From Sergeia podlipaevii (Eukaryota; Euglenozoa; Kinetoplastea; Trypanosomatida; Trypanosomatidae), in assembly GCA_030849805.1 (NCBI GenBank), contig JASANZ010002243.1:35601-99600 (forward strand): a stretch of 64,000 nt of DNA. Reading direction: 5' to 3'. The notes beneath the pieces were generated by a model. It made no database searches. It saw only the letters and a program-made list of their open reading frames with translations, and was not told the origin of the DNA. A program made the translations under genes and the position numbers. Shown here in pieces: positions 6,680 to 63,980 of this stretch (position 1 is its first letter; every line of letters starts with the position of its first letter).

Positions 6680-8155
6680 TTACAGCCACTCTGACTTGTT
6701 CTCACCACCCCTAACCGCCTTCGCCACTGGGAAGCGGGGCACATCTTGCGAGGACAGTTCCTGATACTGCACTGTCAGATATTTATCAAGAAACTCTTTA
6801 CGCTCAGACCAGAGGGAGAGGCGTCTCTTCATTGTGACCTTGGGTGGGGCGTTGAAGCGAATGCCCTCCTTGGTCTCACAGACAAAGGCGCCTAGACCTC
6901 CCTTAAACTTGCCTTCGCCAGGAAGGAAGCCGACAATCTTAAACTCCGCGTCGTGCATCTGCTTGTACTTAAGAAGTCCAAAGCTACGCTTGCCGTGCTC
7001 GTAGGGGAACTCCGGGCGACGAATCATGACCCCCTCAAAGCCCTGCGAGCACGCCTCTGTCAGTACATCCTCCATCTCCTCTGGATGAACGAGAGCAGCA
7101 GGCACGTGGTATATCTTGGTCTCCTTCACGCTGCCTTCCTGATTGCTCATCACATTGTATCGAATCATTTTCTTTTTCTTTTCATCGTGCTGATAGTTGC
7201 TGATGCGCTTGGCGCCACATACAGGGATCAGCTTTTTAAGAAGGCGGTAGCGCTCATCAAAAGGAGCCTCTTGCGAGCGAAGGGCAGAGCTGTACATGAT
7301 GTCGAAAGCAAAGTACTCGATTAGGCGATCTTGAGCCTCCACGATTGCGTCCGAGGACGTCTTGCGCAGCCTGCGCACCAGTCCGTTCAGCTGCTCAAAG
7401 TTGCATTCAGGCGCGAAGAGCTCGCCATCGAGCATGAGCTCAGGATCGCTTTCAAAAAGTGGCTGAACGTGTGGGACGAGGCTGCCACAACATTCTAGCA
7501 CAATACCACCACGAGAAAAAAACTGCACCTCCTTGCGGATTTTGTTGTAGCCGATCATACAACGGATACCGTCAATCTTTGGGGACGCCAGCATTAGATT
7601 CTTCTCGCCACGTTCACTGGCCAGCTGAAGCTGATCGGCGACGAGCTCCCAGCGCTGTGCAAGCATAGGCTGAATGTTCTTGCTTTCCCACTGTGGATTG
7701 CTGTACAGTACGCTGGTGTAGTTTGAGTGGATCATGCGTGGCGCCTTGCTGTACTGCGGGACCTTGGTGACTACCTTGCCCTCGTCGTTAGTTATCGTGG
7801 TCGCCTCCAGTTGCTTTTGGGGTTTGTGGCACAGTGGGCACACACCGCCATCGTCGATAAACTTCGCGATTGCCATTTCAAATTCCTCGAGGCACTGCGA
7901 ACATCGCCAGACCGCTCGTTTACTGCAGACAGGAGACACGTTCGTAGGGGTCTGCATGACTGTGCCCCAGCAGGGTCCCACCCAGCATGCAGCAATGTGG
8001 GGGAAGGCAGCCTCAATGGTCGTTCCTTTCAGTTCACGATACATTTTCTTCTGGGCGGCGGTGCGATTGCGGCTGGCGCCAAAGGGCTTGTTGCTATTGT
8101 CCTTTGACACAGAGGAGGCCGTGGCGGCTAAAAAAAGAAATGACCGGCGCAACAT
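6680..8155 (-). CDS. Mitochondrial ATP-dependent DNA ligase, kinetoplast DNA ligase type (copy 1)
   Basis: 491 residues, ATG at 8155, TAA stop. The N-terminus (MLRRSFLFLAATASSVSK) looks like a mitochondrial import signal. A zinc-ribbon-like module follows, with WRCSQC (83-88) and CPLC (106-109). The nucleotidyltransferase core has motif I PKIDGIR with catalytic Lys193, FFSRGG (212-217), DGELF (243-247), FDIMY (284-288), EGVMIRR (374-380) and LLKYK (394-398). The C-terminal OB part ends TVQYQEL...RFPV. Kinetoplastids carry two tandem mitochondrial ligases, LIG k-alpha and k-beta, which seal gaps and nicks in kDNA minicircles; the adjacent paralogue at 9020-10660 fits that pair exactly. I cannot say from sequence alone which is alpha and which is beta. 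The pattern of preserved motifs suggests an active enzyme. Confidence 0.92.
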   Translation of the reverse strand: MLRRSFLFLAATASSVSKDNSNKPFGASRNRTAAQKKMYRELKGTTIEAAFPHIAACWVGPCWGTVMQTPTNVSPVCSKRAVWRCSQCLEEFEMAIAKFIDDGGVCPLCHKPQKQLEATTITNDEGKVVTKVPQYSKAPRMIHSNYTSVLYSNPQWESKNIQPMLAQRWELVADQLQLASERGEKNLMLASPKIDGIRCMIGYNKIRKEVQFFSRGGIVLECCGSLVPHVQPLFESDPELMLDGELFAPECNFEQLNGLVRRLRKTSSDAIVEAQDRLIEYFAFDIMYSSALRSQEAPFDERYRLLKKLIPVCGAKRISNYQHDEKKKKMIRYNVMSNQEGSVKETKIYHVPAALVHPEEMEDVLTEACSQGFEGVMIRRPEFPYEHGKRSFGLLKYKQMHDAEFKIVGFLPGEGKFKGGLGAFVCETKEGIRFNAPPKVTMKRRLSLWSERKEFLDKYLTVQYQELSSQDVPRFPVAKAVRGGENKSEWL

Positions 8156-9019: not shown

Positions 9020-10660
9020 CTAAATCCAGTCCTTTCCGTTGGCGGCTCCACGAATGCACTTACCCACCGGAAATCTCGGAATTCCGTCCGTAGTAAGCTC
9101 CTGATATTGCACAGTGAGTGCTTTGCCAACGTACTCTTTCTTCCACCGTGCCCACATTTTTTTCTTTTGTTCGTCCGTCGAAGCTGGCGTCACTGTGAAA
9201 GTCTTCTTCTTGTTCTTCGTTTGACATAGAAAGGCGCCGAGACGACCCTTCCACTTGCCTTTTCCCTCCACTGCAGAGACAATCACAAATTCATCGTCCT
9301 GCATCACCTTGTACTTGAGCAGCGTGCTACTTCGCTGCCCGTACCCATAGGCCCCAGAGGTGTCCGTGCCGCCCAATGCCGCACCTGTCTTGATGCGCTT
9401 CTGCGCGGAGCGTGTCTTGTGCTCGTGAGTGCTATCTCTGCGAATCATTACTCCCTCATAGCCGACACTTATCGCCTGTCGCAGCGCGGTGTCTACCTCG
9501 GCCTTGGTACATCGCATACAAGGCACCAGTGTGAGAACGAGAGGGTCATAGCCTCTGATTGCACTCGCGTTATGGGCGTTAACATCGCCAATCAGTTTAG
9601 TTAAATGCGCATAACGTTCACTAAATGGCGCCTTGTTCCCGCACGCAGCAAACTTGGTGGAATATAGGACATCAAATATATGATACTGCAATTGGTTCTG
9701 CAGCGCCGCTGCCTCTGGGGTGCGGTACTCACGCGTTGTGCGAATGGCAGAGGTCAGCTCCTGGAAGCTCACTTCATTCTCTTTCGTTGCCGCCTTGCGT
9801 CCCTTCTGGGCCGAGCCATCCGTTTTCCTTAGCGCTTTCAAGAAGGCCCCGCAGCTTTGCAGCGAGGATGAGGCGAGCGCCGAGGCAGCCTTAGCCTTGT
9901 TCACAGAGTCGTTGTACAGCTCGCCATCCAGGACAAGTGCGGGATCTTTCTCGAAGGCGTAGCGGAGTGCTGGTTCTATCTTCTCATCGCAGCACTCAAA
10001 TAGGGTTCCAGAACGACTAAAGAAGAGAATGCGCTTGTTTTTCACGTCATAGGCGACGACACAGCGAATGCCATCCAGTTTTGGAGAGACAAATATTTTC
10101 TCATCGTCCACGATCTTGCTGCTCTCCTTTTCATAGTTTTTGGCAAGCATCGGCATCAAGTTGCGCGTCTCGCTCACACGCAGGTACTGCCCATCCGCGA
10201 CCGACTTCTTGATGCGGTTTGCATTTGGCGCGGCAAGCGTGCCCAGCGAGCTATCTGGGCGGCAACGGTGCTTCACAGCCGTGGCAAGATCCTCGACAGA
10301 CTTTCTGGTGCTGCTTGGCAGTGCTACTACAGAAGGGCATGCGTGACACTTGGGGCACTCCCCACCAGCGGCCACATGCAGATCAATGCGCTTGTTGAAC
10401 TGATGAGAGCAGCTGGGACAGCACCACCAGGCAAGCTTGCGACTATCCGGAGCAACGTGATGAGGCTGCAACATTTTGTTTGATGCGGCGGTCATCCACA
10501 TGCGAGCAATGCCAGGATGAAAGGAAGCTAGCGTGGTGGCTGGTGCCGCTGATGCCGCCGTGCGAGGCGCTTTGGACAAACGAGTTTTGGACTTCTTTGG
10601 GGCAAGAAGTATTAGACATGGGCGGCCAATAGCTGCCGCTGAAGTCCGAAAGCAGCGCAT
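9020..10660 (-). CDS. Mitochondrial ATP-dependent DNA ligase, kinetoplast DNA ligase type (copy 2)
   Basis: 546 residues, ATG at 10660, TAG stop. A basic, hydroxyl-rich N-terminus suggests mitochondrial import. Residues about 48-106 match the DUF4379-type zinc ribbon: HPG...MW near 48-55, WWCCPSC (78-84) and CPKC (102-105). The catalytic core has PKLDGIR with Lys194 as the adenylated residue, FFSRSG (213-218), DGELY (245-249), FDVLY (329-333), EGVMIRR (402-408) and LLKYK (447-451). The C-terminal block TVQYQEL...PRFPVGK matches copy 1. It is longer than copy 1 because of insertions between about 255-310 and 410-445, the second Gly/Ser-rich. With copy 1 it forms the LIG k-alpha/k-beta pair that closes minicircle gaps during kDNA replication. 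Alpha or beta identity is not resolved. Confidence 0.92.
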   Translation of the reverse strand: MRCFRTSAAAIGRPCLILLAPKKSKTRLSKAPRTAASAAPATTLASFHPGIARMWMTAASNKMLQPHHVAPDSRKLAWWCCPSCSHQFNKRIDLHVAAGGECPKCHACPSVVALPSSTRKSVEDLATAVKHRCRPDSSLGTLAAPNANRIKKSVADGQYLRVSETRNLMPMLAKNYEKESSKIVDDEKIFVSPKLDGIRCVVAYDVKNKRILFFSRSGTLFECCDEKIEPALRYAFEKDPALVLDGELYNDSVNKAKAASALASSSLQSCGAFLKALRKTDGSAQKGRKAATKENEVSFQELTSAIRTTREYRTPEAAALQNQLQYHIFDVLYSTKFAACGNKAPFSERYAHLTKLIGDVNAHNASAIRGYDPLVLTLVPCMRCTKAEVDTALRQAISVGYEGVMIRRDSTHEHKTRSAQKRIKTGAALGGTDTSGAYGYGQRSSTLLKYKVMQDDEFVIVSAVEGKGKWKGRLGAFLCQTKNKKKTFTVTPASTDEQKKKMWARWKKEYVGKALTVQYQELTTDGIPRFPVGKCIRGAANGKDWI

Positions 10661-27700: not shown

Positions 27701-28259
27701 CATCTCTTACTGCATGCTCAGCCATCATACCACAAGCTGACGAGGAGGTGCTTTCCTTCTGTTCCTCCCTTCCGGTGCTTTGTGCCTGCCCCCTTGCCTT
27801 TGCAGACATTGCACCTTTTTTGATCATGTGCTTACGTACCATGGAGAAGGTGGCAGCGTCCGTGTTATACTGCGGGTCAAGTTGCAACTGACAGAGGGCT
27901 GGCTTAGCCGCTCGTCTCTTCCGCGCTTCCGGAGCTTCCGCATCCTTCGGGTCTACTGCCGGCACCTCTTCGTGCGTCTCGGACAGCGTCGGCCGTAGCC
28001 GAAACACGAGGAAGCCACTTTCGTGTCCCACACCTATGCGTGAGTATTTCTGGTTGATGCACAAGCACAGCGGTCGCACACACGATATCGCAATTGGAGA
28101 TGAAGCAGCTGCTGCTGTTGTTGCGGAGGATGCAGCTGCAGTGCTGTGTGTGCCTGCCTGGGACGCAGACGCCTGTGCAGCGTCGCGGCTGGCAGCGCCT
28201 AGTAGAATGACTCCATCATTGCCATCGTCCAAGTATTCCCAGCCCTCTACATCAGACAT
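24753..28259 (-). CDS. Large PROPPIN (ATG18/WIPI-like) beta-propeller with degenerate FRRG motif
   Basis: 1168 residues from ATG 28257-28259 (MSDVEGWEYLDD); TGA stop. Despite long Ser/Ala/Gly-rich insertions, the PROPPIN blades are traceable: INQKYSRIGVGHESGFLVF near the N-terminus; VAVMALLYELPSVALVGGG, matching the WIPI blade that ends in LVGGG; LRVLLDTRILFAVTTCELVVYANPL; ERALVAACSEYATRITMWQL; then EFRIGFRVP, where FRRG is expected. Later come HLQFVHGGRFLFATRGTTMHFF and RTWGLAFTHLAPCLLIWEHD. PROPPINs bind PI3P and PI(3,5)P2 in autophagy and endosome traffic through the two Arg of FRRG. Here residues 716-719 read FRIG, so one Arg is lost. Canonical relatives are about 350-500 residues, so over half of this protein is insertion, including an 11-Ala run encoded by GCA/GCT repeats. 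Confidence 0.75.
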   Translation of the reverse strand: MSDVEGWEYLDDGNDGVILLGAASRDAAQASASQAGTHSTAAASSATTAAAASSPIAISCVRPLCLCINQKYSRIGVGHESGFLVFRLRPTLSETHEEVPAVDPKDAEAPEARKRRAAKPALCQLQLDPQYNTDAATFSMVRKHMIKKGAMSAKARGQAQSTGREEQKESTSSSACGMMAEHAVRDVMVDTCAVPQTEGGERLPSLESSSTCSSTGIDIDVDVPSASFRRLLGTDDLIINEHNIDVFLAHSRFLESHQQHAPAADNEEKEATTERSNIADAALQKSREYSSCSHKSHAHSRHRNPTDVNFGVNEGARDTSGVEDSSFTLQNDFCGDEEDETGDEDGGTVGFAGGGVAVMALLYELPSVALVGGGPAPMGDNGPHRIYLLHGGHLEHTIAAPRPVLRVLLDTRILFAVTTCELVVYANPLQPELASCVYSFSFADAAAAAPAAGIVGSRWSLWSTGLASTVSGQPTTLAVHETSPQLPPTSPNTDDSAEQRSKTGEETGGRDVSPPSVPATAAVPHATAAVAASPTVPFPLCIDYANGRLLIRSAASPLGFTLLRYSADLAEGPLAVTGARVRLEEIATQQRAHKNRLASLALCADPAPMPSTSSGDTGVGSTKEGGDGTGEDAKGHAGGAPASARAPVERALVAACSEYATRITMWQLVPNTTGAGSGGAANVMDGAHEKHGVQGVEGTLYATQESRWCFVELREFRIGFRVPVFSRVPSAPTPPPPPSSAMSMERGMPAAVLDLSGSRLSATANNASMASTSAIAAALSPGPPSMTASGTFTASAVATIEQEAHRVEHLQFVHGGRFLFATRGTTMHFFACYEETSKEAKDMCRDHLQAQRNRRSKLGVVSRMIPDSLNLVAAYTRQAWSACEARFPVKDTFFYPKWLYIYKQDLAAAAAAAAAAAGSSTGALSSSRSGWKQRAGAAHHVANAALGGAMGLMRNVLSSGDRRGSSDPRDEIAATASAEDAGKAKSWWGGVFRSKKDAKAALESAPFYQQQTVPRETSSTPSGSFFSTSSGIVGETNGSVGMAVPGRTWGLAFTHLAPCLLIWEHDLSVRFSTSAALAQLLFPSQIGMERGGGAVGRGGEGPDVWSTANAPYENEHEHLQDRQRYSMAEASKKVVLSCATCEGAFLSIRLYTESGEIYCSKAVPYKIK
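26103..26114 (-). other. Degenerate FRRG phosphoinositide-binding motif (FRIG)
   Basis: Codons TTT CGT ATA GGA give F716-R717-I718-G719. In PROPPINs the corresponding tetrapeptide is F/L-R-R-G, its two Arg contacting two lipid headgroups. ATA differs from the Arg codon AGA by one base. The alignment is by eye, from flanking blade patterns. Confidence 0.6.
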
Positions 28260-28945
28260 GTCTGCCGAAAGGGAGGAGAGAAGAAATAACAATTGTGATC
28301 AAGTACAGAATTAAGGAGTAAAAATAAAATAATAGCAAATTACAAAATGATATTAGCACCAAAACATATATATAAAAAAAAGGCAACGCAAACAAATAAT
28401 AATAATAATAATAAAACCAGCAAATAAGGGGATTTTGCTTCTAGATACTGATACACTCGAAGAGTATGTCCTCTCGCTGCCTGATCCGCAACCGCAAATA
28501 CGACTTTGTTGTGCTCCGTGTTCTGTTTGTCTGTGACTTGCATGCACTAAGCGCGGCACTGTATTGATGGTACAAAAAGCAAAAAAAAAAAAGGAAAAAA
28601 AAAAATAGAAGAAAATAAAAAACCCCAGTAAAATGCAACAATGAATAGCAGATGACAAACAGAGATCGTAACAATAAAAGCAGTAGATATATTCCATATC
28701 TAGCAAGTTACATAACATATTGCTACGCGCACACTCACACATTCGCGCAGCAGTGGGAGCGGCATCAAATTGGCTGATGCAAAGAAGACTCCTCAATGTT
28801 TTCATCTTTTTTTTTCGTTTGTCAAACCTTCTACTTAACTCTGTACTTATAATATGTGAAGAAGACAACTTCGGTGCTCAACTAGAAAAATTTCAAGAAA
28901 GCGCAAAACATAACAATAATAGAAGAAACGACTCGCACACGTTGC
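28260..28945. other. AT-rich intergenic region
   Basis: About 0.69 kb with A homopolymers and an (AAT)n run near 28396-28413. Separates the PROPPIN gene from the J-protein gene. No gene seen. Confidence 0.6.
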
Positions 28946-30649
28946 TTAAAAAGCAGGCGGCTTGCTTGTTGTGGCTGCCGAGTGGGCAGCCTGCTGGATA
29001 TAGGCAATGAGCTCCGCGTCATTGTGGCTGCTATCGTTCCATCGCGACTTGCTTCCCTTTGCCAACATCTTCTCCCCAAGCAACCACAGCGCATAGCATC
29101 GCTTTTTACGTACTTCCTCCGATTCCACGACATCCTGCAGCACCAACTGAACGGTGTAACGAAGACACACCTGCAAGTCAGTGACAATGGAGTCGTATTC
29201 CATGGCAAAGTACTCCAACATGATCTTACGCGCTAGCTCCTCCTTATCATTGGGGTTGATCTTATCCTTAAAGGCTGAAGAGATACGATCCATCCCGCTG
29301 AATATCTTGCGAGTTTGCAGTACCTTTGGGGCGTAAAATGGGCGTACACCAAGAAAGCGCTGCGCTCCAACGACGTACGCCTCGCCAATCTCAAAGAGCA
29401 GCTCGCGGCCAAAGCAGGCATCCGCCAGACGTCCTACAAATACGTCGCACCGTTCCTCAAAGTCACGTGAAAAGCAGTTGTATTCGTTACTGCCAGGCTT
29501 GAGTGCGTATGCCGACTCGCTCGTCTTATCTTCCGTCGCTGTATTCGACGCCTCAGCCTTCTTCTTGTGTGGTTGCTGCTTCTTACTACTACTGCTCCCC
29601 TTGTGGTGCATCTCGCCAAGTTCCTCCAGCATGGCGGACTCCATATCCAAGTCAACAACCTTTTTGCCTCCTGCCCCCTGCGTGCCACCTATTCCACCAG
29701 AATGTGTTGTCGTGATGCTATTTCGGTCGAAGGGATCAGGAAGTCCACTCATCTTCACTCTACGTGGTATACCACCACCACCACCACCAGCAGCAAAAGA
29801 AGAAGAGACATTACGATGATATGGTGTAGTAGGCCGGCGAGCATGCACGTCCACAATGCTCGCGAGATTCGAGGCCAGCTGTCGCACTCGAATGCACTGC
29901 AGCTGCTCTAGCTCATGCAAGGAGACACTTACCTGCGCCTCGTTGCGCAGCGACCAGTGCGAACGCAGCATCTCTCCAGTGAGTGTAGAGCGAAAAGCCT
30001 CACCACCAAAAACACTCTGTACGACTTGTTCTGGCGTGCGCGCCATAAAGGTGCCGTAGCGGGACTCGTGCATCTCAAGGCCACGTGCTCCTCCCAGATC
30101 ATACGCCTTACGCTTCTCTGGGTTGGAAAGCACTTGGTAGGCGTCGCTGATGGCCGCAAACTTGTTCTGTGCCGCCGCCCTCTCCGCATCCGTCAAGGGT
30201 CTCGCGCTGCTGTTCTCCACGACGTCAGGATGAAAGACCATCGCGAGTTTCTTGTACTGTGCCTTGATCTGCTGAGTCGTCGCGGCACGGCGCACTTGCA
30301 GCACTTCATACGGATTCTCCACCCTCGCACTGCTGTCGTCGCCACTGCCATCCTTCTTCCCTCGAAATTTGTGCTGAAACGCCTCCATTGTGATACCCAT
30401 AGAGCTCATTCTGGACAACCACTTGCTCTCCACGTGCATCTTCTTGCGCCTGTACTCCACGCGTCCGATGGCGCGAATAAGGCGTTTCTCCAGCTGCAGG
30501 TTGTGCTTGAAACAGTTGCAATCCAATACCGAGCACTGCATCCAGCGGCCGCTCTGGGCGTCAAAAAAGTACTTCCCCCAAAGAAAGTTAAGCGGTCCAT
30601 AAACGGAATTGGCAAGCCCTCGCGGGATATGAATGAGAGGAGAGAGCAC
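28946..30649 (-). CDS. Membrane J-protein, C-terminal part (J domain), separated from its N-terminal part by in-frame UGA
   Basis: 567 codons open directly after the UGA at 30650-30652, in the same frame as the 337-residue frame at 30650-31663. The first codon is GTG, not ATG; the first Met is residue 37, inside conserved sequence. Residues 1-40 continue a hydrophobic region (LSPLIHIPRGLANSVYGPLNFLWG). The J domain is at about 110-185: NPYEVLQV, then KLAMVFHPDVV with the Hsp70-activating HPD, then ISDAYQVLSNPEKRKAYDLGG. A DnaJ-X-like region follows (VVQSVFGGEAFRSTLTGEML), then a glycine/Lys-rich low-complexity stretch and a helical C-terminus. The J-protein at 62091-63980 has the same order of parts in a single frame, so these are very likely two halves of one gene. 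Alternative: a genuine truncated gene, or a sequence error. Confidence 0.75.
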   Translation of the reverse strand: MLSPLIHIPRGLANSVYGPLNFLWGKYFFDAQSGRWMQCSVLDCNCFKHNLQLEKRLIRAIGRVEYRRKKMHVESKWLSRMSSMGITMEAFQHKFRGKKDGSGDDSSARVENPYEVLQVRRAATTQQIKAQYKKLAMVFHPDVVENSSARPLTDAERAAAQNKFAAISDAYQVLSNPEKRKAYDLGGARGLEMHESRYGTFMARTPEQVVQSVFGGEAFRSTLTGEMLRSHWSLRNEAQVSVSLHELEQLQCIRVRQLASNLASIVDVHARRPTTPYHRNVSSSFAAGGGGGGIPRRVKMSGLPDPFDRNSITTTHSGGIGGTQGAGGKKVVDLDMESAMLEELGEMHHKGSSSSKKQQPHKKKAEASNTATEDKTSESAYALKPGSNEYNCFSRDFEERCDVFVGRLADACFGRELLFEIGEAYVVGAQRFLGVRPFYAPKVLQTRKIFSGMDRISSAFKDKINPNDKEELARKIMLEYFAMEYDSIVTDLQVCLRYTVQLVLQDVVESEEVRKKRCYALWLLGEKMLAKGSKSRWNDSSHNDAELIAYIQQAAHSAATTSKPPAF

Positions 30650-30652
30650 TCA
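30650..30652 (-). other. In-frame UGA inside a continuous J-protein reading frame
   Basis: The codon order on the minus strand is TTC TAT GGT TGA GTG CTC TCT, with the frame open for 337 codons before and 567 after. UGA differs from the Trp codon UGG by one base. UGA terminates at least five other genes here (those ending at 11558, 17989, 24753, 34933 and 45259), so general reassignment is not supported. Candidates are readthrough, a recent nonsense mutation, or a base-call error. Confidence 0.7.
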
Positions 30653-31663
30653 ACCATAGAAGAGAAACTGCACCGCTTTACCTACGCCGCAGAGAGCGCC
30701 AAGGGGGCCACCAATAATCCAGCCACGATTCTTCGCCCCGCGCATCGCACCGAAACAGATACACCCGATGCTGTTGGTAATGGCAATCCACGCATTCCAT
30801 ATCACGTGGTACACTGCGTGGCCAATGTGGCGCTTGGGAGTAAGAATCATGCGGCTGTAGTAGTTGAGGGCGTGCATAGCACGGATGTTGCGAAGGTAGT
30901 CAACATCAGAAGAATCAGTGATAATGGCCCCACCGTGACTGCTCGAAGATACTGCGGCAGAAGAGGGCTTCTCCCCTGTTGGCGGCTGAAACGGGCGCAT
31001 AGAGGAAACGTTCAGCACACGAGCGACGGCGCGGACAAGTGGAGAAGAGGTGCCACGCCAGTTCGCGTAAGCTGCAAGTGTCTCGGAGTTGAGAGGCGGA
31101 TCCAAAGCCACTTTCGTGCGACCTCGAGACGTAGTGACATCGAAGTGGTTGTCCTCGTTCTTTACGATGGGCTTCTTTGCCTTGCCCTTCATTGATGTGG
31201 AATCGCTTCCTTCTCCCATTCTTCCAGTGGCTGCAGCTGCCTCTTCTGCAGACTTTCTCTGCGCCGCCTCCTCTTGTTGCTCGGCCATGATTTTCTTCGC
31301 ATACGCCGCGCGCACCTTCCCACAAACGTAGTGCATGCGAGTAGGACGACCAGAGATGGTGGCGCCAGCGGTGTCTACCACGAGTTGCTGGCTTTCTAGC
31401 AAGGCCCATCGAATGCGCCTGAGTTCCATGTCCTGTGCATCCGCCTTACCTGCCAGACGGTGAGCAATGGGGAGGTATTCATCCCCAGCTGCCTCCTCCA
31501 TCACTCGGAACTCTTCCTCCTCAAGGCGCTTGTCCTCTTCGTCTTCTTTGGCTGCCTGGGCTGCTGCTGCTGCTGTTGTGTAGCTAGAGCTGGCTTTAGA
31601 TGCCATGTGCCTGAGAGCAACTCCTCGCAGACCACTGGCAAGAAAAGCTCCATGCCGGCGCAT
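30650..31663 (-). CDS. Membrane J-protein, N-terminal part (mitochondrial-type leader and hydrophobic region)
   Basis: 337 residues, ATG at 31663, ending in UGA at 30650-30652. The N-terminus MRRHGAFLASGLRGVALRHM is a likely mitochondrial presequence. Charged Ala/Glu-rich helices follow. The C-terminal 70 residues are hydrophobic and Gly-rich (TPKRHIGHAVYHVIWNAW, then IGGPLGALCGVGKAVQFLFYG), resembling the region with GPVGFVLAPFYGAAWGG in the J-protein at 62091-63980. On its own it has no recognisable function; read through the UGA it would continue straight into the hydrophobic start and J domain of 28946-30649, giving a 905-codon frame. There is no room between them for a 3' UTR or splice acceptor, unlike every other gene junction in the window. 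Confidence 0.7.
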   Translation of the reverse strand: MRRHGAFLASGLRGVALRHMASKASSSYTTAAAAAQAAKEDEEDKRLEEEEFRVMEEAAGDEYLPIAHRLAGKADAQDMELRRIRWALLESQQLVVDTAGATISGRPTRMHYVCGKVRAAYAKKIMAEQQEEAAQRKSAEEAAAATGRMGEGSDSTSMKGKAKKPIVKNEDNHFDVTTSRGRTKVALDPPLNSETLAAYANWRGTSSPLVRAVARVLNVSSMRPFQPPTGEKPSSAAVSSSSHGGAIITDSSDVDYLRNIRAMHALNYYSRMILTPKRHIGHAVYHVIWNAWIAITNSIGCICFGAMRGAKNRGWIIGGPLGALCGVGKAVQFLFYG

Positions 31664-33633
31664 ATTTGTGTGTGTGTGTGTGCTATTTAATACCGTGATT
31701 GCCCTTTACTTTGATGATAATATAAATGTGAAAATTATGTTTTTCTTTGTGTTGCTTTTTCTGCTCTTCTCACCTTTTGGTAAGAAAAAGGCAGTTAAAA
31801 TAGAAGAAGTAACCAAGCTACGGTGTTTCTGCCTTCTTCTCCAATAAGCTTTCGCTATCAACAATGGACGTACGTATCAAAAAAAAAACCCCACGAAGAG
31901 ATGATAAGCATTTCTGTTGTTGTTGTTGTTGTGCAGTAGTCATAAATATTCACGTGTATAGTAGTACGCCTTTGTGAACAGTACTATACAACATACATAT
32001 CAAATAAATAGTCCACTATTTTAAGGAAAGTAAGTGCTAACAAAAATGACAACACTACCCTTTTTTTTGTGTGTGTGCTTTGTTAAAGTGTATATATAAT
32101 CGTAGGTGGTAACGGATAAATCAAAATCATGTAAGCATATATGAATGTATATAAGTTTATATATGTGCAACGAATACTACTACTTCTTCTGATCCGTTTC
32201 TCTCTCTCTCTCTCTTTTTAAAAATTAATACTAGTACTTTTCTTTAACGTCTCTCTCTCTTTTTCTCCCCCTTTCCCCGTTGTTCTGTGAGTGTGCCAGT
32301 GCATGACCATTTTCCTTAGTACCTAACAATGCAGTGTAGCAGAGAAGAAAAAAAAAAGAAAGGAGTGGCAAGGAGGGGGGGGGGATCAAAAAGGGAAAAG
32401 AAAGCGGTCGAGGAGGACAACAGCAACAACAGTAAATATCAGCCCCCTTCCCTTCTTTTCTTATCCATTTCATCCGCATACATAATATGTATTCCACAAC
32501 AGACATAGAAAAGAAATAGTGATAAATACATAACTGTAAAGATGCAATAGTTGGATATATATATATATAAAGGGGGAAATAGAGATGACAAGCAAGGAAA
32601 ATCACAAACGAACAAACAAATATCTTTGTTTCCTAGAAACAAATGTACAACTTTTTAGTATCCAGTGTTGCGGTGTGCGTGTGCATATATGCGAGAGAAC
32701 GCAGGTGTGGAAACCCTAACAAAAGCGCCTTATGAGGCACCGCAGTTGTGCAAATCAAAACACTCAATAAGAGAGAGTATTCAAAAAGCAACAACAAAGA
32801 GTCATTATGACACACACACACAAAAACAAAAACATGCAGCGAATGCAAAATTTTTTTTTTTACTCATCGTAGATGACCAACAACATGCTACTATATAGCA
32901 GGCAAATCATTCAGCAAACGAGAAAAAAAAAATGAGACACCGAAAAAAAAGAGGGAGAAAAAAAGAAAAAAAAGAAAGGAGTAAAAGATTATGCATCGCG
33001 CAAATGCACTGTCACTCCTTAAGCGTATTTTATGTATCTGGTTGTTTGTTTCGCACGCGTAACAATAATAATAACAGAAAAAACAAACAAAAAAAAGAAT
33101 ATATGTATATATATATAATATAAAAAAACACCATTAATCAGCAAAGCCAAAGGGACATCTAGATATGTAACTGGCGAAGTCCAGCAAAGCGCTGCACCGA
33201 GCCACACATTGTTTATGTGCTCACTCTTGGGCACATGCGCTTCACAGCCCTCTGCAGATACTTTTATTAAAGACACAGGGGTGAAGCAGCGTGGGGAGAG
33301 GGGGTTAAGAGAAGAGAAGAAGAAAAAAAAAACATATCCGGTGCAAACCCAAAGAGCGGAGTAGAAAACAAATACATATGTAAAACCCCCACACATGCTG
33401 TGCTTTGGAAAGAAAAAGAGAAAAATATGAGAAGGGAATGAATGTGCCTCACTGCAACACCAAGTCAGCAGCAGCAGCAGTAACAACAACAACAACAACA
33501 ACAATAAAAGGGAAGATAGTGCTATTTGTAAAGCAATCAACTACACGCAAAGCATACAAAGCTGAAGTGCCCTGATACACAAAATGTGCTTGCGCACATA
33601 TATACATGCTTAAAAACACGACATGGAGACCTC

Positions 33634-33651
33634 TTTTTTTTTTTTTTTTTT
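33634..33651. repeat. Poly-T run, 18 bases
   Basis: Uninterrupted T run on the plus strand, directly visible; the longest homopolymer I noted in the window. Confidence 0.85.
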
Positions 33652-33988
33652 AAATGAAGATAACTGAGTAGGTTCCTGTCAAAAATATATACAGAGAATG
33701 ACGTGAAGGGAGGGGGAGGCAAGAAGGTGAAAGGTAATCTGTATCTCAATGCCGCTTTTTATTATTACCTCTCCCTTCTTGATAGTGTTCTACAGAAATA
33801 CCATCTATGTGTTCTATGAAACTAGCACCGCCAATTTTCTTCACTCCCCCTCTGTTTCTGTAGAGTGCACCATCATCTCTCGTGCGTGTACTATCCTGCG
33901 CACACACACACACATACACACACATGCAGGTTAATTACCCATAAGCTATGCAGATCCAGATAGACAAAACGTACCAGAGAAGCGTGTC

Positions 33989-34012
33989 ATATATATATAT
34001 ATATATATATAT
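33989..34012. repeat. (AT)n microsatellite
   Basis: About 12 uninterrupted AT units in the large intergenic region downstream of the FYVE gene. Confidence 0.9.
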
Positions 34013-34932
34013 GAGCAGTGTATGCGTGTGTTTGAGAGAAAATGTCAATAGGATTTGAAGATGGCTCTACCCATTCCATTGATAAAACTTTCTTCTTAAT
34101 AACCACAATAATAATAATAATAGTTGTACAACTACTACTTTAACAAAGTAAGTGAGAGTAAGGAATAAAAGTTGAAGACTGCGCTATGCCACATTTTTTC
34201 TTTAGTTCCTGTTTCCTATATATAAAATGTATATGGCGCGCGTATGCATATCCGTTTTCGTTGCAGTTTATATATGGTGCAAACAGAGTGTGATACAAAT
34301 TTTACTAATGCTACTAAAATAAATGAAATACACACACAAACACAAACACACACAAACACACACATGCACACACAGTAAGTTAAACACACAAACATGGAAT
34401 ATGTGGGACATTCGAACACAAAGCTACCTGGTAGTACTTCTCCGAACAAACCAAGAGCACTAGTACATATTTGCACACTCACACACGCGCAAACAACAAA
34501 AAAAAAGATATCAAAAAGCTACTTCAAAAAAAAAAAAAGCTAGGGAAAGTAAAAAGTTACAATCCAGTTTGGAAAAAGTCTTTAAATAAGAAGAAATACA
34601 ATACAAAAAAAAAGAACCCGCTTATCGGCACATTGATTTTCATACAATCAAAATGAAAAAAAAAAACGTAGCATCAAGGTTGCTTCTCTTCCTATGCAAC
34701 CTTTCCTATTTACACATACACACACATATATATGTATATATATATATATGCCTGGACACGACAAGAGTAACAAATGTGTAGTTATATAGTAATAATAATA
34801 GCAGCGTAGCTTGAAGCTACATCAACCTACTACATTGCTCTCGCATGATATTCCACCGCCGCAAAAAGAAAACAACAACAACAACATCATCATCAAAGTA
34901 CCTCACAAACCAGCATAATACTGAAAGATGAC

Positions 34933-38715: not shown

Positions 38716-41700
38716 TCCGTATATTCTGCACACACACACAACTTGTTGTTAGCTACAAAAAATCTGTCTATATATATATACGTTTCCTTCTCTCGATCTC
38801 ACTCTCTTGTTTGTTCGGATAAACTAAAACAAGTACACAAGTAAGACGCTGCAACAACAACAACAATAATAATATATTGAATTTCAAGAGAGAGAGAAAA
38901 AAAGAAATGACTCTCTAAATTGATACAAAAAAAATAAAAAATTAAAGTAATGACTACCTTAACACCAAAAACAAAAAACGAAAAGAAAACGCCAAAAAAA
39001 AAAACACACACAGACACTTCAGCAGCTATATATATATGTTGCAAATATAAATCAGCACACTTGAAACGGTGAACTTTATATAAATACACTGCTTTAACAA
39101 ATGGTACCAAAGCAAACAAACAAACAAACGAATAAAAAAAGCAGAAGCACACAAGCAAGATATACGCAGAGTAGAACGTGGCAGAATGGATACCAATCAG
39201 TCCTTCAAGAAACCAATGCCACCCTTCAAAAATAATAACAACAAAAAAAAAATGCCACACGTTGCAGATGTGGTTATCACAAATTGAGGTACACACGAAA
39301 ATATTAAGTGGCTGGAAGAAGTCTTTGAAACTTCCAACTCGAACGAAGGATCAAACCAATTACTAGAACAGAGAAGAAAAATAAAAGTGCAGAGAAAGAA
39401 AGTTTTAATGAAACACCTCTCGTTCTCTTCCTTGACTATTCTAGCTACTCCTCACAGTGAAGGGTGAGCAAAGGATTATTTTCCCTTTCTATAAATGTGT
39501 GTGTGTGACACAGATTTTTTTTTTAAAATGAAACTAAGAGCGTACACTTGCTAGCTACGTCTCGTTTCTGTTCACGCTACAACAGATAAAAAAATATGCT
39601 TGCTGATATACGCACGCAAACACAGTCTCTCTCAGATGTGTGCAATGCTATAAAAATATATAAGTATATAGCAAACAATTGTTTCTATCTACTTCAATGT
39701 CTCTTGTGAAGACGTTGTTTACTGTTCTTTTGATCGACTCGAAGTCCTTATCTCTTGATTTATGTTCGTTCTCCCTATTTTCTAATATATATATATATAT
39801 ATTGAGTAAGAAAAAAGTTCAATAAATTGTACTTGATATCTAGAACGTTCAAAAAAAAGAAAAAAAACTCCAATATATATATAAGCACTTAGCGCTATAG
39901 CGATGCACTGCTATGTCAGAGATGGTGACAACAAAAATAAAAATACACACACACGACGAACAACAACAACAACAAAAAGATATCTCCCCTTTTCTTACTG
40001 CTTGCTTGCCAGTGAAAGCAACCCTCACCCTTTTCCTTCTATATTCACGTAGTCAGAAAGAAAGAGGGAAAAAGGACACACCGTTTGACTTTCCCTTTTT
40101 GAAAGAAAGTTAACTCTTTTCCCTATAGAGAAAGAAAAGATATGGAGTGCGAGGCCTCAAGTAACAACGAGTCAAACGTCTGGACGTGTGGCTGTATCGT
40201 TTTCTTGCTTCAATGCCGAGGAACACTGTGCTACCGCTCGAAACTTTAAGCGTGCTGTAATGAGTATACTGATACTTTTATGCTCAATATGAGAACACAG
40301 CAGTAAAAAAAGAAAAGTAAACGGAAGCGCGCTTAGTTGACAGTAACACAGAGACGCACACACACAAACACACGGGAAGGAGACACAAAGAAATTCTTTT
40401 CCTTTAAAGAAAAAAAAAGCAGATTAAAAGTAAAAGGAAGCAGAAGATGAAAGCCGCACCAATCACGACAACAGCACACCAAAGCAGTGAACAAAAAGGG
40501 GGGGGGGAAGTAGGAAAAAAGTACACCCCAAAAACAAGCTGTAAAGATGGAAGACACCTACTCCCTGCTTAAAAGCGCAGGAAGGAAAATGATCTCCCAG
40601 TCAAGACAGCAACTCGCCTTCTTAAACACACACACACACTCTCTCAAGCTTAAACAACTAAATAAAAAAATATATATGTAATAGTAACAATAAAAGTAAT
40701 GAGGTGGACAAGAAAATATAAGTTCAACACTTATATATATATATATATATATAAATGTGAGAAATTGCTCACTCCTTGTTTGAGTGTTCTTCTTCGCTCC
40801 GCGTCGCACTAGATAATGTAATATAATATTATATATATATGTACTGCTAATAACACTAAGGAGAACACCAATAAAAAGGAGGAGGAGGGGAAAAAAAAAC
40901 TGTAATAATAACTAAGGCAGAAAAATAAGAGAGATAAATAAAAAAATAAGATAAAACTAATAAAAAGAACACTTCAAAAAAAAAAAAATACAAATATAAA
41001 CAGCTGCTTAACAAGGGTACGGTGTATGTACGACCTTGCGCTCAAAAGGAAAGAGTGAAGTGTCGGAGGAGGAAGAAAAGCGGCACACACAAAAAAAGCA
41101 AAATAGTACTAATAATACTAACAATAAGAAAACGTTTCTTTTAAAAAAATTGTAGTAATATCCCTAATCAATAATAATAATAATAATAATAATAATACCA
41201 CTCAAAGCAGGGGTGTGCTTGCCTGCAGTGACTTAAAAAAAAAAAATGTAAGCTTTTGAAAGGCTTGTATGTGTATTTACAAAAAGGTATCCTTTCTCTC
41301 TCTCAAAAAAACAAAAAAACACTATTGTAAAAAAAAAAAATGTGAGAAAGAAAGACCCTAATTGTCATTTGTTTTGTGATGAAGGGGGGGGGAGGGGGTG
41401 ATAAAAAAAAAATTAAAGAATGAAAGGGAGAAAGAGAAGAATAGATATATTATGATAAATCCAAACAAGTATCTGCAAAGGGCGGAAAAAAGGTACGCGC
41501 TCAACGAGAGGATCCCTTTAAAAAAAAATATATAAGTATATCAAGGGGAACCCCACCAGTTCAGAAAAATACAAAATTTCATATGTATGTGCAATTTTTT
41601 TAATTGTGCATTTATGTTAGACGTAAATACGCGTACCTTAAACTGTGTGAGCGCTTTAAAAAGAACAACAACCACAACCACAACTCCCAACCAACAGTAG

Positions 41701-41930
41701 CATAATCGTAACTTGAGCTCGCCAAGTTAGTAACAAAAAAAGGGGGCTTTAACGCTTAACATACAATTATAGCATTATAAAAATACAAAAGAAAGTTACT
41801 CGTCAATAAAAGAAGAAGGAGCAAAGGTAAAGAAGAAAAAAAAACAGTGGAAGCAAAAAGAAAAGTATCCACTATAGTAGAAAGAAAGTACAAGCATTGC
41901 CATATTCAAATGTTAGTACAATTACTTCTA
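38716..41930. other. Long gene-poor, AT-rich intergenic region
   Basis: About 3.2 kb, the most AT-rich gap, with (TA)n at about 39785-39801 and 40732-40753, (AAT)n at 41169-41197, A runs, and G runs near 40498-40508 and 41385-41392. A short stretch at about 39170-39365 is more complex but gives only a 62-codon plus-strand frame. I find no tRNA, rRNA or mobile-element coding sequence. Confidence 0.5.
41169..41197. repeat. (AAT)n trinucleotide microsatellite
   Basis: About nine to ten uninterrupted AAT units, directly visible, downstream of the NOL10 gene on the transcribed strand. Confidence 0.9.
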
Positions 41931-47514: not shown

Positions 47515-49437
47515 TTAGTCAACGTTGTCAGCGGAAGGGGCCTCCTCGTGGTTCGCAGCATCACCAGTGTTGGAGGGAGGAGATTCCAGCACCTTCTTCT
47601 TGTAGTACACGGAGAGAATTGGGTGCGCAATGGCCTCGATGTCCTTGACGTGCGCCATGTACTCCTCCTTGGTGGCCTCCTGGTTGTCATCGAGCCAGTT
47701 GGAGGCGACGCTGACGACGGCCTGGATCTTCTGGCGGTCCTCAATCGCAACACCGCTCTGAACATCGGGGTCATCGAGGGTGGCACGCATGGAGAAGGTG
47801 TAGTTCTCCAGGGTGTTGCGGGCCTCGATGCGCTCGCTGTTGATGCGATCCTCCTCGGCAAACTTCTCTGCCTCCTTAACCATGTCGTTGATCTGGTCCT
47901 TGGTGAGACGGCCCTTGTCATTCTTGATGGTGATAGCCTGCTTCTTGCCACCAGACTCCTCCTCGGCGCTCACGACGAGAATACCATCTGTGTTCACGTC
48001 AAAGCTGACGGTGATGCGCACCGTACCGCGCGGAGCGGGGGGAATGCCAGTGAGGGTAAAGGTGCCCAGGCACTCGCACTGAGAGACAAGGGGACGCTCC
48101 CCCTCATACACCTTAATCTCCACCTGCGTCTGGTTGTCCGCATTGTTGGAGAAGGTCTGGGACTTCTGAATCGGCATGGTCGAGTTGCGAGGAATGATCA
48201 CTGACATGACGCCGCCAGCAGTCTCTACGCCAAGAGAAAGCGGGGTCACATCCAGCAGGAGCAGACCATCGGTCTTCTCGCTCTTACCACCGGCAAGAAT
48301 GTGAGCCTGCACAGCCGCACCGTACGCCACGGCTTCATCGGGGTTGATGGAGCGGTTGAGCTCTTTGCCACCAAAGAACTGGGTGACTAGCTGCTGAATC
48401 TTGGGAATACGGGTGGAGCCACCAACGAGCACTACATCGTTCACATCCTGCGGCTTCATCTCGGCATCGGTAAGGACCTTCTTGACGGGCTCCAGGCACT
48501 TCTCGAACTGCTCGCGGCACATCTCCTCGAAGCGAGCACGAGTGAGCTTAGAGAAGAAGTCGTGGCCCTCGTAGAGAGCATCGATCTCAATGTTGGCGGT
48601 GGTGGAGCTGGAAAGGGTGCGCTTCACACGCTCGCAGGCAGTGCGCAAACGGCGGGTAGCGCGAGGGTTGACACGGCAGTCCTTGCCGCAGCGGGTTTTG
48701 AATTCCGTCGCAAAGTAGTCCACAAGGCGGTTATCGAAGTCCTCACCACCAAGGTGGGTATCGCCAGCAGTGGCCTTGACCTCGAAGACGCCCTTCTCAA
48801 TGGAAAGAAGTGTCACATCAAACGTACCGCCACCAAGATCGAAGATGAGCACGTTGCGCTCACCGGCGTCAGTCTTCATATCCATACCGTAGGCGATGGC
48901 AGCGGCAGTGGGTTCGTTGATGATGCGGAGCACCTCAAGGCCGGAAATCGTACCGGCGTCCTTGGTGGCCTGGCGCTGGGAGTCGTTGAAGTAGGCGGGC
49001 ACAGTAATGACGGCTTTGGTGACGGTCTCGCCAAGGTAGGCCTCAGCGGTCTCCTTCATCTTGCCGAGTACCATGGCGGAAATCTCCTCAGGGAAGAAGG
49101 TCTTGGTGGAGCCCTGGTACTCCACGGACACGACGGGCTTGCCATCCCTCACGGTCACCTTGAAGGGCCAGTGCTTCATGTCGCTTTGAAGATCAGGATC
49201 ATCGTACTTGCGGCCAATCATACGCTTGGCGTCGAAGATAGTATTGATGGGGTTCATGGCAACCTGGTTCTTGGCGGCATCACCGACGAGACGCTCGGTC
49301 TCTGTGAAGGCAACATAGGAAGGGGTGGTGCGGTTACCCTGATCGTTGGCGATGATCTCAACCTGGTCGTTCTTGAAGATGCCTACGCAGGAGTAGGTGG
49401 TACCAAGATCGATACCGATGGCGTTGGTGGTGGACAT
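47515..49437 (-). CDS. HSP70.4: Cytosolic-type HSP70 lacking EEVD (HSP70.4-like)
   Basis: 640 residues, ATG at 49437, TAA stop. All three HSP70 signatures are present: IDLGTTYS near the start, [15 protein letters not shown], and [14 protein letters not shown]. The linker and start of the substrate-binding domain ([17 protein letters not shown]) are intact, and the lid is complete. No mitochondrial leader or ER signal peptide/KDEL is present, so it is cytosolic. The C-terminus is SADNVD instead of EEVD and the GGMP repeats are missing. Trypanosomatids have two cytosolic types without EEVD, HSP70.4 and HSP70.c. I favour HSP70.4 because, from memory, it shares a chromosome with the kDNA ligases in T. 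brucei. Loss of EEVD predicts weak binding to TPR co-chaperones such as HOP. The gene symbol is provisional. Confidence 0.88.
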
Positions 49438-62090: not shown

Positions 62091-63980
62091 CTACTTGTTA
62101 TCCTTCTCACGCTGCTGCTGTTGTTGGTATTCACGAAGAGAGCTCATGAGCTGATCCATTGTAGACTTGTTGGCACCTCTGTACACCTGGCCGTGACGAA
62201 TAAACACATCGGCAAGCGCACTGAGCGCATCGCGACGCCGTTGAGCCTCTTCTGCGTTTATGGTAGGGTCATACAAGACTGAGAACGCCACCCAGCGTGC
62301 CGTTAGCTCAAACTCCTCAACCGATGAATACCACGCAAGATCAACCATCGCCTCGCTATTTTTAAACGTATCACTACGAATGGTCGTCAAATACTTAATC
62401 TTCATCTTGCGCTGCGCCAGCCGGTGTGGCGCCACTTCACTCATATATTCCTTCATGCGAAGCGCCGCAGTTGCTGAGACAGATAGCAATGACAAGCCTT
62501 TGCTCTCAGCAGCATGAGTGGCCCCCTGGCCATCTATCCTGCTTGCAGCCATAACACGCTCAAAATCATAGCACTTGACAGCGCGTTCATACTCCTTCCC
62601 TTGCACGTAAACAACCTCTCTGGCAAGGCCAGTTGCAAGTAGTTTGCGAAGCTTCACGGTGAACGCACCGCTCCACGGCTCTTGTCCGGCTGGTGTGCGT
62701 GAGTCTTCTCGACTAGTCGTCTTGCTAGAGCCAGACGCTTTGCCATCACACGCAACCAATGGCCTGTACTGTGATAGATATTCGGTGAGTAGCTCATCAC
62801 GACAGCGTTCGTACATGCGTTGCTTCATGACCGCCAGCTCATCAGCGACAAAGTCGAGTCCATCGATGACGCGCTGAGAGAAGCTGCCGATGAAAACATC
62901 TCCAGAAAGCTTGTTTAGCGTCTCGCCGCCAAATACGCCACGAACCCCCTCACGTTTCTTCTCACCCAAGTCATCGACACCCTTTGCACCACCGAGGTCG
63001 TACTTCTTGCGCTTCGCAGGGCTTGAGAGCACTCTGTATGCCTTTGTGACTGCATCAAATTGCGAGGCTGCCTGCGGACTCGGGTTCTTATCAGGGTGCA
63101 GCTTTAGCACTAGCCGGTTGAACGCGTCCTTGATCTCCTTCTCAGTGGCGTCTGTTTGAACGCCGAGGAGGTCGTAGTAGTCGTCCTCGGCAGCGGAGGT
63201 GCCCCGTTTCTTCCCCGAGTACTTTGCCTTCGTCTTGTCACCTCGCTTACCCTGCGCCAGACGTTTCATAGCTCGCTCCCGCAGCACTGTATCGCTTGGA
63301 TACAGAGAAAGAAGGGGGTGCGGCTGGCCGATTCCCATTGGGGCCTCAAACTTGCAGCTCAAGACTCCCCACTGCTTTGCCGTGGCACCCACGCAAGAGG
63401 CATCGTCCGCGCGCCGGTTGAAGCAGTAGTGGGCAGGTGTGGCTAGCCATCCAAGATACACACTCAACGCGGTCTGCTGCACCGCAGCGTAGCAGGAGAC
63501 TGAGAGAAACACTCCGCCCCACGCTGCGCCGTAGAACGGCGCGAGCACAAACCCAACTGGCCCTGTAGAGAGGCGCATCTTCTCTAAAGTGGCACTAAGA
63601 AAAACAATAACGGAGAGAAAGCAGCCCAGCACAACATTGAGTGCGCTCCCGGCAAGACCACGCACAACACTGCGTGTGGGACGTGTAGAAAGAACAATAC
63701 GACTCTCCTCTGCTTCAAACTCTCGTTGCTGCCAGATCCACTTCATTTCTTCTTCTGTTACAAGGCTAAAGCCTGTTCCCTGGGACTGACCACTGCTAGC
63801 ACGAATGAGGCACCGGTAGAGGAAGTCACTCAGTCCTGAAGGCGAGGAGGAAGTAGTGGTGGTGGTGAAGGATGATGAAGTAGACGATGATGGTGAGGAT
63901 GGGGTCCCAGCACGAGAAAGTGATGTGCCAGTAGTTACCGCTAACGCGGCCCTGGAAATCGCTGGGACTGGACAGTGCAT
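62091..63980 (-). CDS. Membrane J-protein (DnaJ domain), paralogue of the split J-protein
   Basis: 629 residues, ATG at 63980, TAG stop. A Ser/Thr-rich N-terminus may be a mitochondrial leader. Hydrophobic segments at about 105-185 (GLAGSALNVVLGCFLSVIVF, then GPVGFVLAPFYGAAWGGVFL) suggest membrane insertion, followed by QWGVLSCKFEAP. The J domain spans about 265-335: DYYDLLGVQTDATEKEI, then LVLKLHPDKNPSPQ with an intact HPD, then KAYRVLSSPAKRKKYDLGG. A DnaJ-X-like part (GVFGGETLNKLSGDVFIGSF) and a helical C-terminus with poly-Gln follow. The J domain recruits and stimulates an Hsp70; the partner is unknown. The order hydrophobic N-terminus, J domain, FGGE...G-motif matches the frame split at 28946-31663, supporting a duplicated or ancient paralogous pair. 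Confidence 0.85.
   Translation of the reverse strand: MHCPVPAISRAALAVTTGTSLSRAGTPSSPSSSTSSSFTTTTTSSSPSGLSDFLYRCLIRASSGQSQGTGFSLVTEEEMKWIWQQREFEAEESRIVLSTRPTRSVVRGLAGSALNVVLGCFLSVIVFLSATLEKMRLSTGPVGFVLAPFYGAAWGGVFLSVSCYAAVQQTALSVYLGWLATPAHYCFNRRADDASCVGATAKQWGVLSCKFEAPMGIGQPHPLLSLYPSDTVLRERAMKRLAQGKRGDKTKAKYSGKKRGTSAAEDDYYDLLGVQTDATEKEIKDAFNRLVLKLHPDKNPSPQAASQFDAVTKAYRVLSSPAKRKKYDLGGAKGVDDLGEKKREGVRGVFGGETLNKLSGDVFIGSFSQRVIDGLDFVADELAVMKQRMYERCRDELLTEYLSQYRPLVACDGKASGSSKTTSREDSRTPAGQEPWSGAFTVKLRKLLATGLAREVVYVQGKEYERAVKCYDFERVMAASRIDGQGATHAAESKGLSLLSVSATAALRMKEYMSEVAPHRLAQRKMKIKYLTTIRSDTFKNSEAMVDLAWYSSVEEFELTARWVAFSVLYDPTINAEEAQRRRDALSALADVFIRHGQVYRGANKSTMDQLMSSLREYQQQQQREKDNK

Follow-up and report, generated by a model that had tools for sequence, protein, structure and literature searches.

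How should a gene be read when its frame is broken by one stop codon and is otherwise intact: as two genes, as one gene whose stop is decoded, or as one gene that carries a recent or mistaken stop? The question is raised by the minus strand of positions 28946-31663 in a window of 64,000 nucleotides from Sergeia podlipaevii (C544:35601-99600, in an assembly of 23.39 Mb and 576 contigs). This interval is a single frame of 906 codons, composed of 337 codons, a TGA, 567 codons and a TAA (Table 1), with no further stops or frame breaks within it besides the one UGA.

The interrupted frame

The initial annotation had opened this frame with an ATG at 31663, placed the TGA at 30650-30652 after 337 codons, and continued the frame for 567 codons; all these coordinates and counts proved exact, and the frame closes with the TAA at 28946. 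It had also correctly described the second part as opening with GTG and having its earliest in-frame ATG at codon 37. At this base composition, 567 open codons are expected by chance with p of about 2e-11. The second part has a J domain (PF00226, residues 112-184 of this part, E 5.4e-19, with a visible HPD) and a DnaJ-X match (residues 449-533 of this part, E 9.3e-10). The first part has an Arg-rich N-terminus that looks like a mitochondrial leader, and ends with a conserved YG immediately before the stop.

Table 1. Features of the interrupted gene and of the second J-protein gene in the window
Feature	Position	Strand	Remarks
J25 orthologue, first part	30653..31663	-	337 codons from ATG 31663; no Pfam match
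In-frame UGA (TGA)	30650..30652	-	codon 338; base 3' of the stop is G (UGA then GUG)
UGA to first later in-frame ATG	30542..30649	-	36 codons, well conserved; holds a pyrimidine-rich stretch
J25 orthologue, second part	28946..30649	-	567 codons, then TAA at 28946
Second J-protein	62091..63980	-	single frame; synteny marker, seven listed genes from J25

The gap at this junction is 0 bases, against 405-3269 bases for the other 16 gaps among the 18 listed minus-strand ORFs, in a list that leaves out ORFs shorter than 245 aa; this agrees with the earlier claim that every other gene junction has at least 400 bases. Two intergenic gaps of the window, at 31664-34932 and 38716-41930, are unusually long (3.2-3.3 kb, versus 0.4-1.5 kb elsewhere in the window). 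Another feature of this window is a pair of neighbouring minus-strand genes for ATP-dependent DNA ligases, at 6680-8155 and 9020-10660, with an OB domain and DUF4379, which we take to resemble the paired kinetoplast ligases of trypanosomatids.

One gene and the conservation across its stop

Judged by sequence, both halves belong to a single gene that is orthologous to J25, a J-protein of trypanosomatids, and this orthology is not in doubt. With the second part as query, a protein search found 50 proteins; we used the 34 with E <1e-100 (P0001-P0034) and excluded from the counts the remaining 16 (E 2.2e-10 or weaker). The proteins used come from Leishmania, Leptomonas, Porcisia, Novymonas, Phytomonas, Angomonas and Trypanosoma, and their names, where given, go from hypothetical protein to chaperone DnaJ, including 'J25 / JDP25' of L. 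donovani. Each of the 34 is one uninterrupted protein, 663-950 aa long, that has a residue in the column of the stop, a count limited by the fact that predicted proteins cannot themselves hold stops. The orthologues had been named by the initial annotation as a check on the one-gene reading, and they are read across this point as single proteins instead of being two genes. In the multiple alignment their identity is 25-47% to the first part and 39-59% to the second; the alignment to the first part extends over at least 200 residues in 33 of 34 (just 93 in P0032), and every protein is aligned to 470 or more residues of the second part. The local alignments of the search span about half of the query (47-51%) in 6 of the 34, and no relative exceeds 62% identity among the matches to the second part. 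In L. infantum, J25 is listed as LINF_260017700, with 898 aa and a J domain at 459-525 (PMC9141911, Table 1).

Although proteins from about 312 aa upward were eligible in this search, no homologue among the 34 consists of the second part by itself. Stand-alone homologues of the first part were not found either, in a search that is weak because its length limits left out full-length orthologues and its scoring was confined to 7996 candidates. Within the assembly, J25 is at one place, with one strong protein match and one match to 601 bases of its DNA; the other 21 protein matches to the second part in this genome are far weaker (best E 6e-12). A second copy or haplotig of J25 was sought by protein and DNA search of the assembly, and none was found.

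The neighbourhood of the gene matches that of J25 in Leishmania. The J-protein at 62091-63980 is probably the orthologue of J28: the second-best match of its protein is a 652-aa protein of L. donovani, and seven steps separate the two J-protein genes when counted among ORFs of at least 397 aa. Locus tags of J25 and J28 are seven apart in Porcisia (JKF63_04154 and JKF63_04147) and six apart in L. martiniquensis (LSCM1_04133 and LSCM1_04127). Gene identifiers of the LINF series of L. infantum increase by 100 per gene. In the J-protein list of PMC9141911, J28 of this species is LINF_260017000, with 652 aa, seven identifier steps from J25. A full-length HSP70 gene (47515-49437, minus strand) lies between the two J-protein genes of the window, where HSP70 and the two J-proteins thus place chaperone and co-chaperone genes within one 35-kb stretch.

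The initial annotation had used the J-protein at 62091-63980 as an internal comparison, and this holds in part. The gene is indeed a single frame with GPVG and KQWGVLSC, but these landmarks, which precede the J domain, are weak evidence because the main similarity to the second part sits in the J-domain region (35% over 142 columns). The orthologues are much stronger evidence for one gene than the landmarks.

The codons that follow the stop are informative. From the UGA to the next Met, 36 codons have a median identity of 61% to the 34 relatives, second only to the J domain (66%) among six segments; the medians are 40-42% before the stop (42% for the 36 codons nearest to it) and 41% for the 75 codons after the 36-codon segment. 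We rejected the reading as two adjacent genes because the homologues are single proteins and these 36 codons are conserved.

To compare the rates of the two parts we took the topology of the whole protein and fitted branch lengths separately for the N part (262 columns) and the C part (519 columns), using this gene and 31 of its relatives (all but P0032-P0034), 32 sequences in total. The C/N branch-length ratio of this gene is 0.74; ranked from lowest to highest it is the 25th of 32 values, higher than the median and inside the range of 0.35-1.05; in the tree, S. podlipaevii J25 is a long branch and the support of the adjoining nodes is low (51 and 57). Hence, the second part has not evolved unusually fast. 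Together with the conservation of the 36 codons, this suggests that translation crossed the stop point until recently, or still does. Translation would have gone through this point along most of the branch, since an old stop, or an old restart at Met 37, would have relaxed the constraint on these codons.

The same codons bear on gene fission by spliced-leader addition, where a second mRNA would receive its leader just after the UGA, and its translation would start at Met 37 of the second part and give a 531-aa protein with the J domain. A pyrimidine-rich tract does begin a few bases past the UGA and an AG precedes Met 37. Yet, the same tract definition (14 pyrimidines of 16) is satisfied in 35 of the 105 stretches of coding sequence, each 300 bases long, that were taken from 12 genes of the window, and the tract itself encodes conserved residues. 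The tract and the AG thus neither support nor fully exclude a spliced-leader acceptor. The rest of the evidence is less favorable to fission: the would-be 5' UTR consists of the 36 well-conserved codons, the 34 relatives used include no free-standing second part, and the J part would lose its probable mitochondrial leader. We regard this fission as very improbable.

Possible decoding of the UGA

The identity of the residue lost to the stop can be assessed from the relatives. The stop column lies between the conserved YG and a short SP-containing motif, within a moderately hydrophobic stretch, and holds Trp in 16 of the 34 relatives, Leu in 10, Phe in 5, and Tyr, Cys and Val in 1 each. By these residues the position is mostly hydrophobic or aromatic and is not strictly conserved. 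Since it tolerates residues besides Trp, nothing marks the column as catalytic or redox-active.

That Trp is the commonest residue of the column might suggest that UGA is a sense codon, either read as Trp throughout the genome, as in Blastocrithidia, a lineage of the same family described with this code (PMC12153298), or read as selenocysteine at this position. Stop usage contradicts the former: in 231 kb sampled, the 57 ORFs of at least 300 aa end with TGA in 20 cases, TAG in 19 and TAA in 18, where both parts of J25 are counted and the 337-codon first part is one of the 20. UGA is also the terminator of five further ORFs of at least 300 aa in the window, as the initial annotation had stated in arguing that general reassignment was unlikely. 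Furthermore, stops are lacking inside all 298 genomic matches obtained with the second part of J25 (22, its own match included), Pkinase (135), Helicase_C (77) and Kinesin (64), some of these matches being pieces of one gene and kinases having been scored for 121 of 214 candidates. The event at J25 therefore looks isolated. Such a search can reveal internal stops, because one of eight reverse-transcriptase matches, at C572:3082-3633 (plus strand), showed one in-frame TGA; this sequence is probably a decayed retroelement.

The release factor gives a similar picture. In Blastocrithidia, eRF1 is described as having the Ser at human position 70 replaced by Gly (PMC12153298). The eRF1 of this genome is canonical in the motifs compared: GTS, TASNIKS, the next Ser and YxCxxxF are all kept, and the protein reads NIKSHTNKLS (positions matched by eye). 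Stop counts, uninterrupted matches and eRF1 together bear out the earlier doubt about general reassignment of UGA to Trp and led us to rule it out. Selenocysteine was rejected as well, by the presence of Cys at the column in just 1 of 34 relatives and by the lack of Rfam matches at E<=1 in 28000-32600; the Rfam library contains SECIS families, and a divergent SECIS could escape it. We thus give a sense UGA, of either kind, next to no chance of being right.

A subtler possibility is functional readthrough of this one UGA, by which a near-cognate tRNA would read the codon part of the time and yield both a 337-aa N-terminal form and the full chaperone of 905 residues. UGA is commonly the leakiest stop, and the frame is clean and conserved on either side of it. 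The gene for tRNA-Trp, which has a 4-bp anticodon stem in the code of the Blastocrithidia type, was not recovered by our searches: it is absent among the 63 tRNA matches listed (RF00005), typed by ARAGORN on the tRNA loci (three 85-base matches, of a length unlike tRNA-Trp, were left untyped), and four sequence patterns gave none, the two pattern matches examined not being tRNAs by ARAGORN. tRNA-Tyr is likewise missing among the 63 matches listed, and this list, which breaks off well above the threshold, is probably incomplete.

Several observations disfavor readthrough. The stop is conserved in 0 of the 34 relatives, all of which have a residue at its column (predicted proteins being unable to hold stops). 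The eRF1 keeps the Ser and the motifs that PMC12153298 names for Blastocrithidia. No stimulating context or structure was found downstream: the base after the stop is G (UGA then GUG), and UGA-G also closes 2 of the 5 other UGA-ended ORFs of the window, those with FYVE and M20-peptidase domains; the 118 bases that follow fold no better than shuffled sequences (z +1.23, with 180 of 200 shuffles at least as stable). Among open-access papers on readthrough or in-frame stops in trypanosomatids, considered by their titles and the openings of their abstracts, we found papers on Blastocrithidia and none on J25. We consider functional readthrough unlikely. Slightly less credible still is its more specific form, a lineage-specific decoding of UGA in a single gene of a standard-code trypanosomatid, in which one mRNA would give a short N-terminal product as well as the full mitochondrial J-protein. 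If the stop were real and read through, this would be a natural case of single-gene UGA decoding in a standard-code relative of Blastocrithidia, and might represent an early step to the capture of UGA, which another genus of the family has completed.

We also surveyed the 231 kb sampled for other frames split in this way. The survey gave six pairs of open stretches, each at least 150 codons long, that share a frame, and J25 is the only one with recognised coding sequence on both sides. Among the other five pairs, two are antisense to genes of the window and a third to a long frame in L045; the remaining two border a single open stretch of 155 codons located between two long ORFs. Overall, special decoding has little support, with no sign of altered decoding in eRF1, stop usage or the 298 matches.

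A probable nonsense change or base error

Our results suggest, with a probability of roughly 0.87, that this is one J25 gene whose UGA is a recent nonsense substitution, fixed or on a single allele, or a base error in the consensus, and not a case of special decoding. The UGA may be a real and recent substitution, fixed in the strain; it may be present on one of two alleles and have been picked by a collapsed assembly; or the consensus may have a wrong base here. A UGA that is real and homozygous would, with ordinary termination, yield a 337-aa N-terminal piece without J domain, amounting to a loss of function or a truncated form. The event is presumably recent and not functional. A C/N ratio above the median of the relatives counts against this reading, though the ratio is inside their range. 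The clean frame fits readthrough too, because it is expected under both readings. We nevertheless rank readthrough well below a nonsense change and a base error. The initial annotation had taken the locus for one gene and explained its UGA by readthrough, by a nonsense mutation or by a miscalled base; as a set, these options are right.

These results matter for annotation. This J25 orthologue lacks a single uninterrupted reading frame in the assembly, owing to the UGA at codon 338. The two frames are best annotated as a single J25 gene whose internal stop is to be verified, in place of a 337-aa protein of unknown function and a 531-aa J-protein.

The gene can be compared with three known systems. 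It resembles J25 (JDP25) of Leishmania and other trypanosomatids in its alignment over both parts, its mid-protein J domain, its DnaJ-X match and the presence of a second J-protein seven genes away; it differs by holding one UGA where the 34 homologues are uninterrupted. It shares with genes of Blastocrithidia, where the nuclear code described in PMC12153298 reads UGA as Trp, an in-frame UGA at a place where relatives mostly have Trp. Yet, unlike what is described for that genus (PMC12153298), UGA terminates genes in S. podlipaevii, the case is isolated in our sample and the Ser of eRF1 is kept. Finally, trypanosomatid assemblies are known to conceal stops that are present on one allele, and an otherwise clean gene cut by a stop is also what characterizes the allele-specific premature termination codons of T. 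brucei Lister 427 (PMC8445201). In that strain, coding length is reported to differ between alleles in 123 putative genes, the collapsing of alleles to produce false truncations, and ribosome occupancy to drop after the stop, without indication of a restart, in the six cases that were followed (PMC8445201). The two examples that the same study gives in detail (PMC8445201) are frameshifts, whereas the stop in J25 of S. podlipaevii is of the substitution type.
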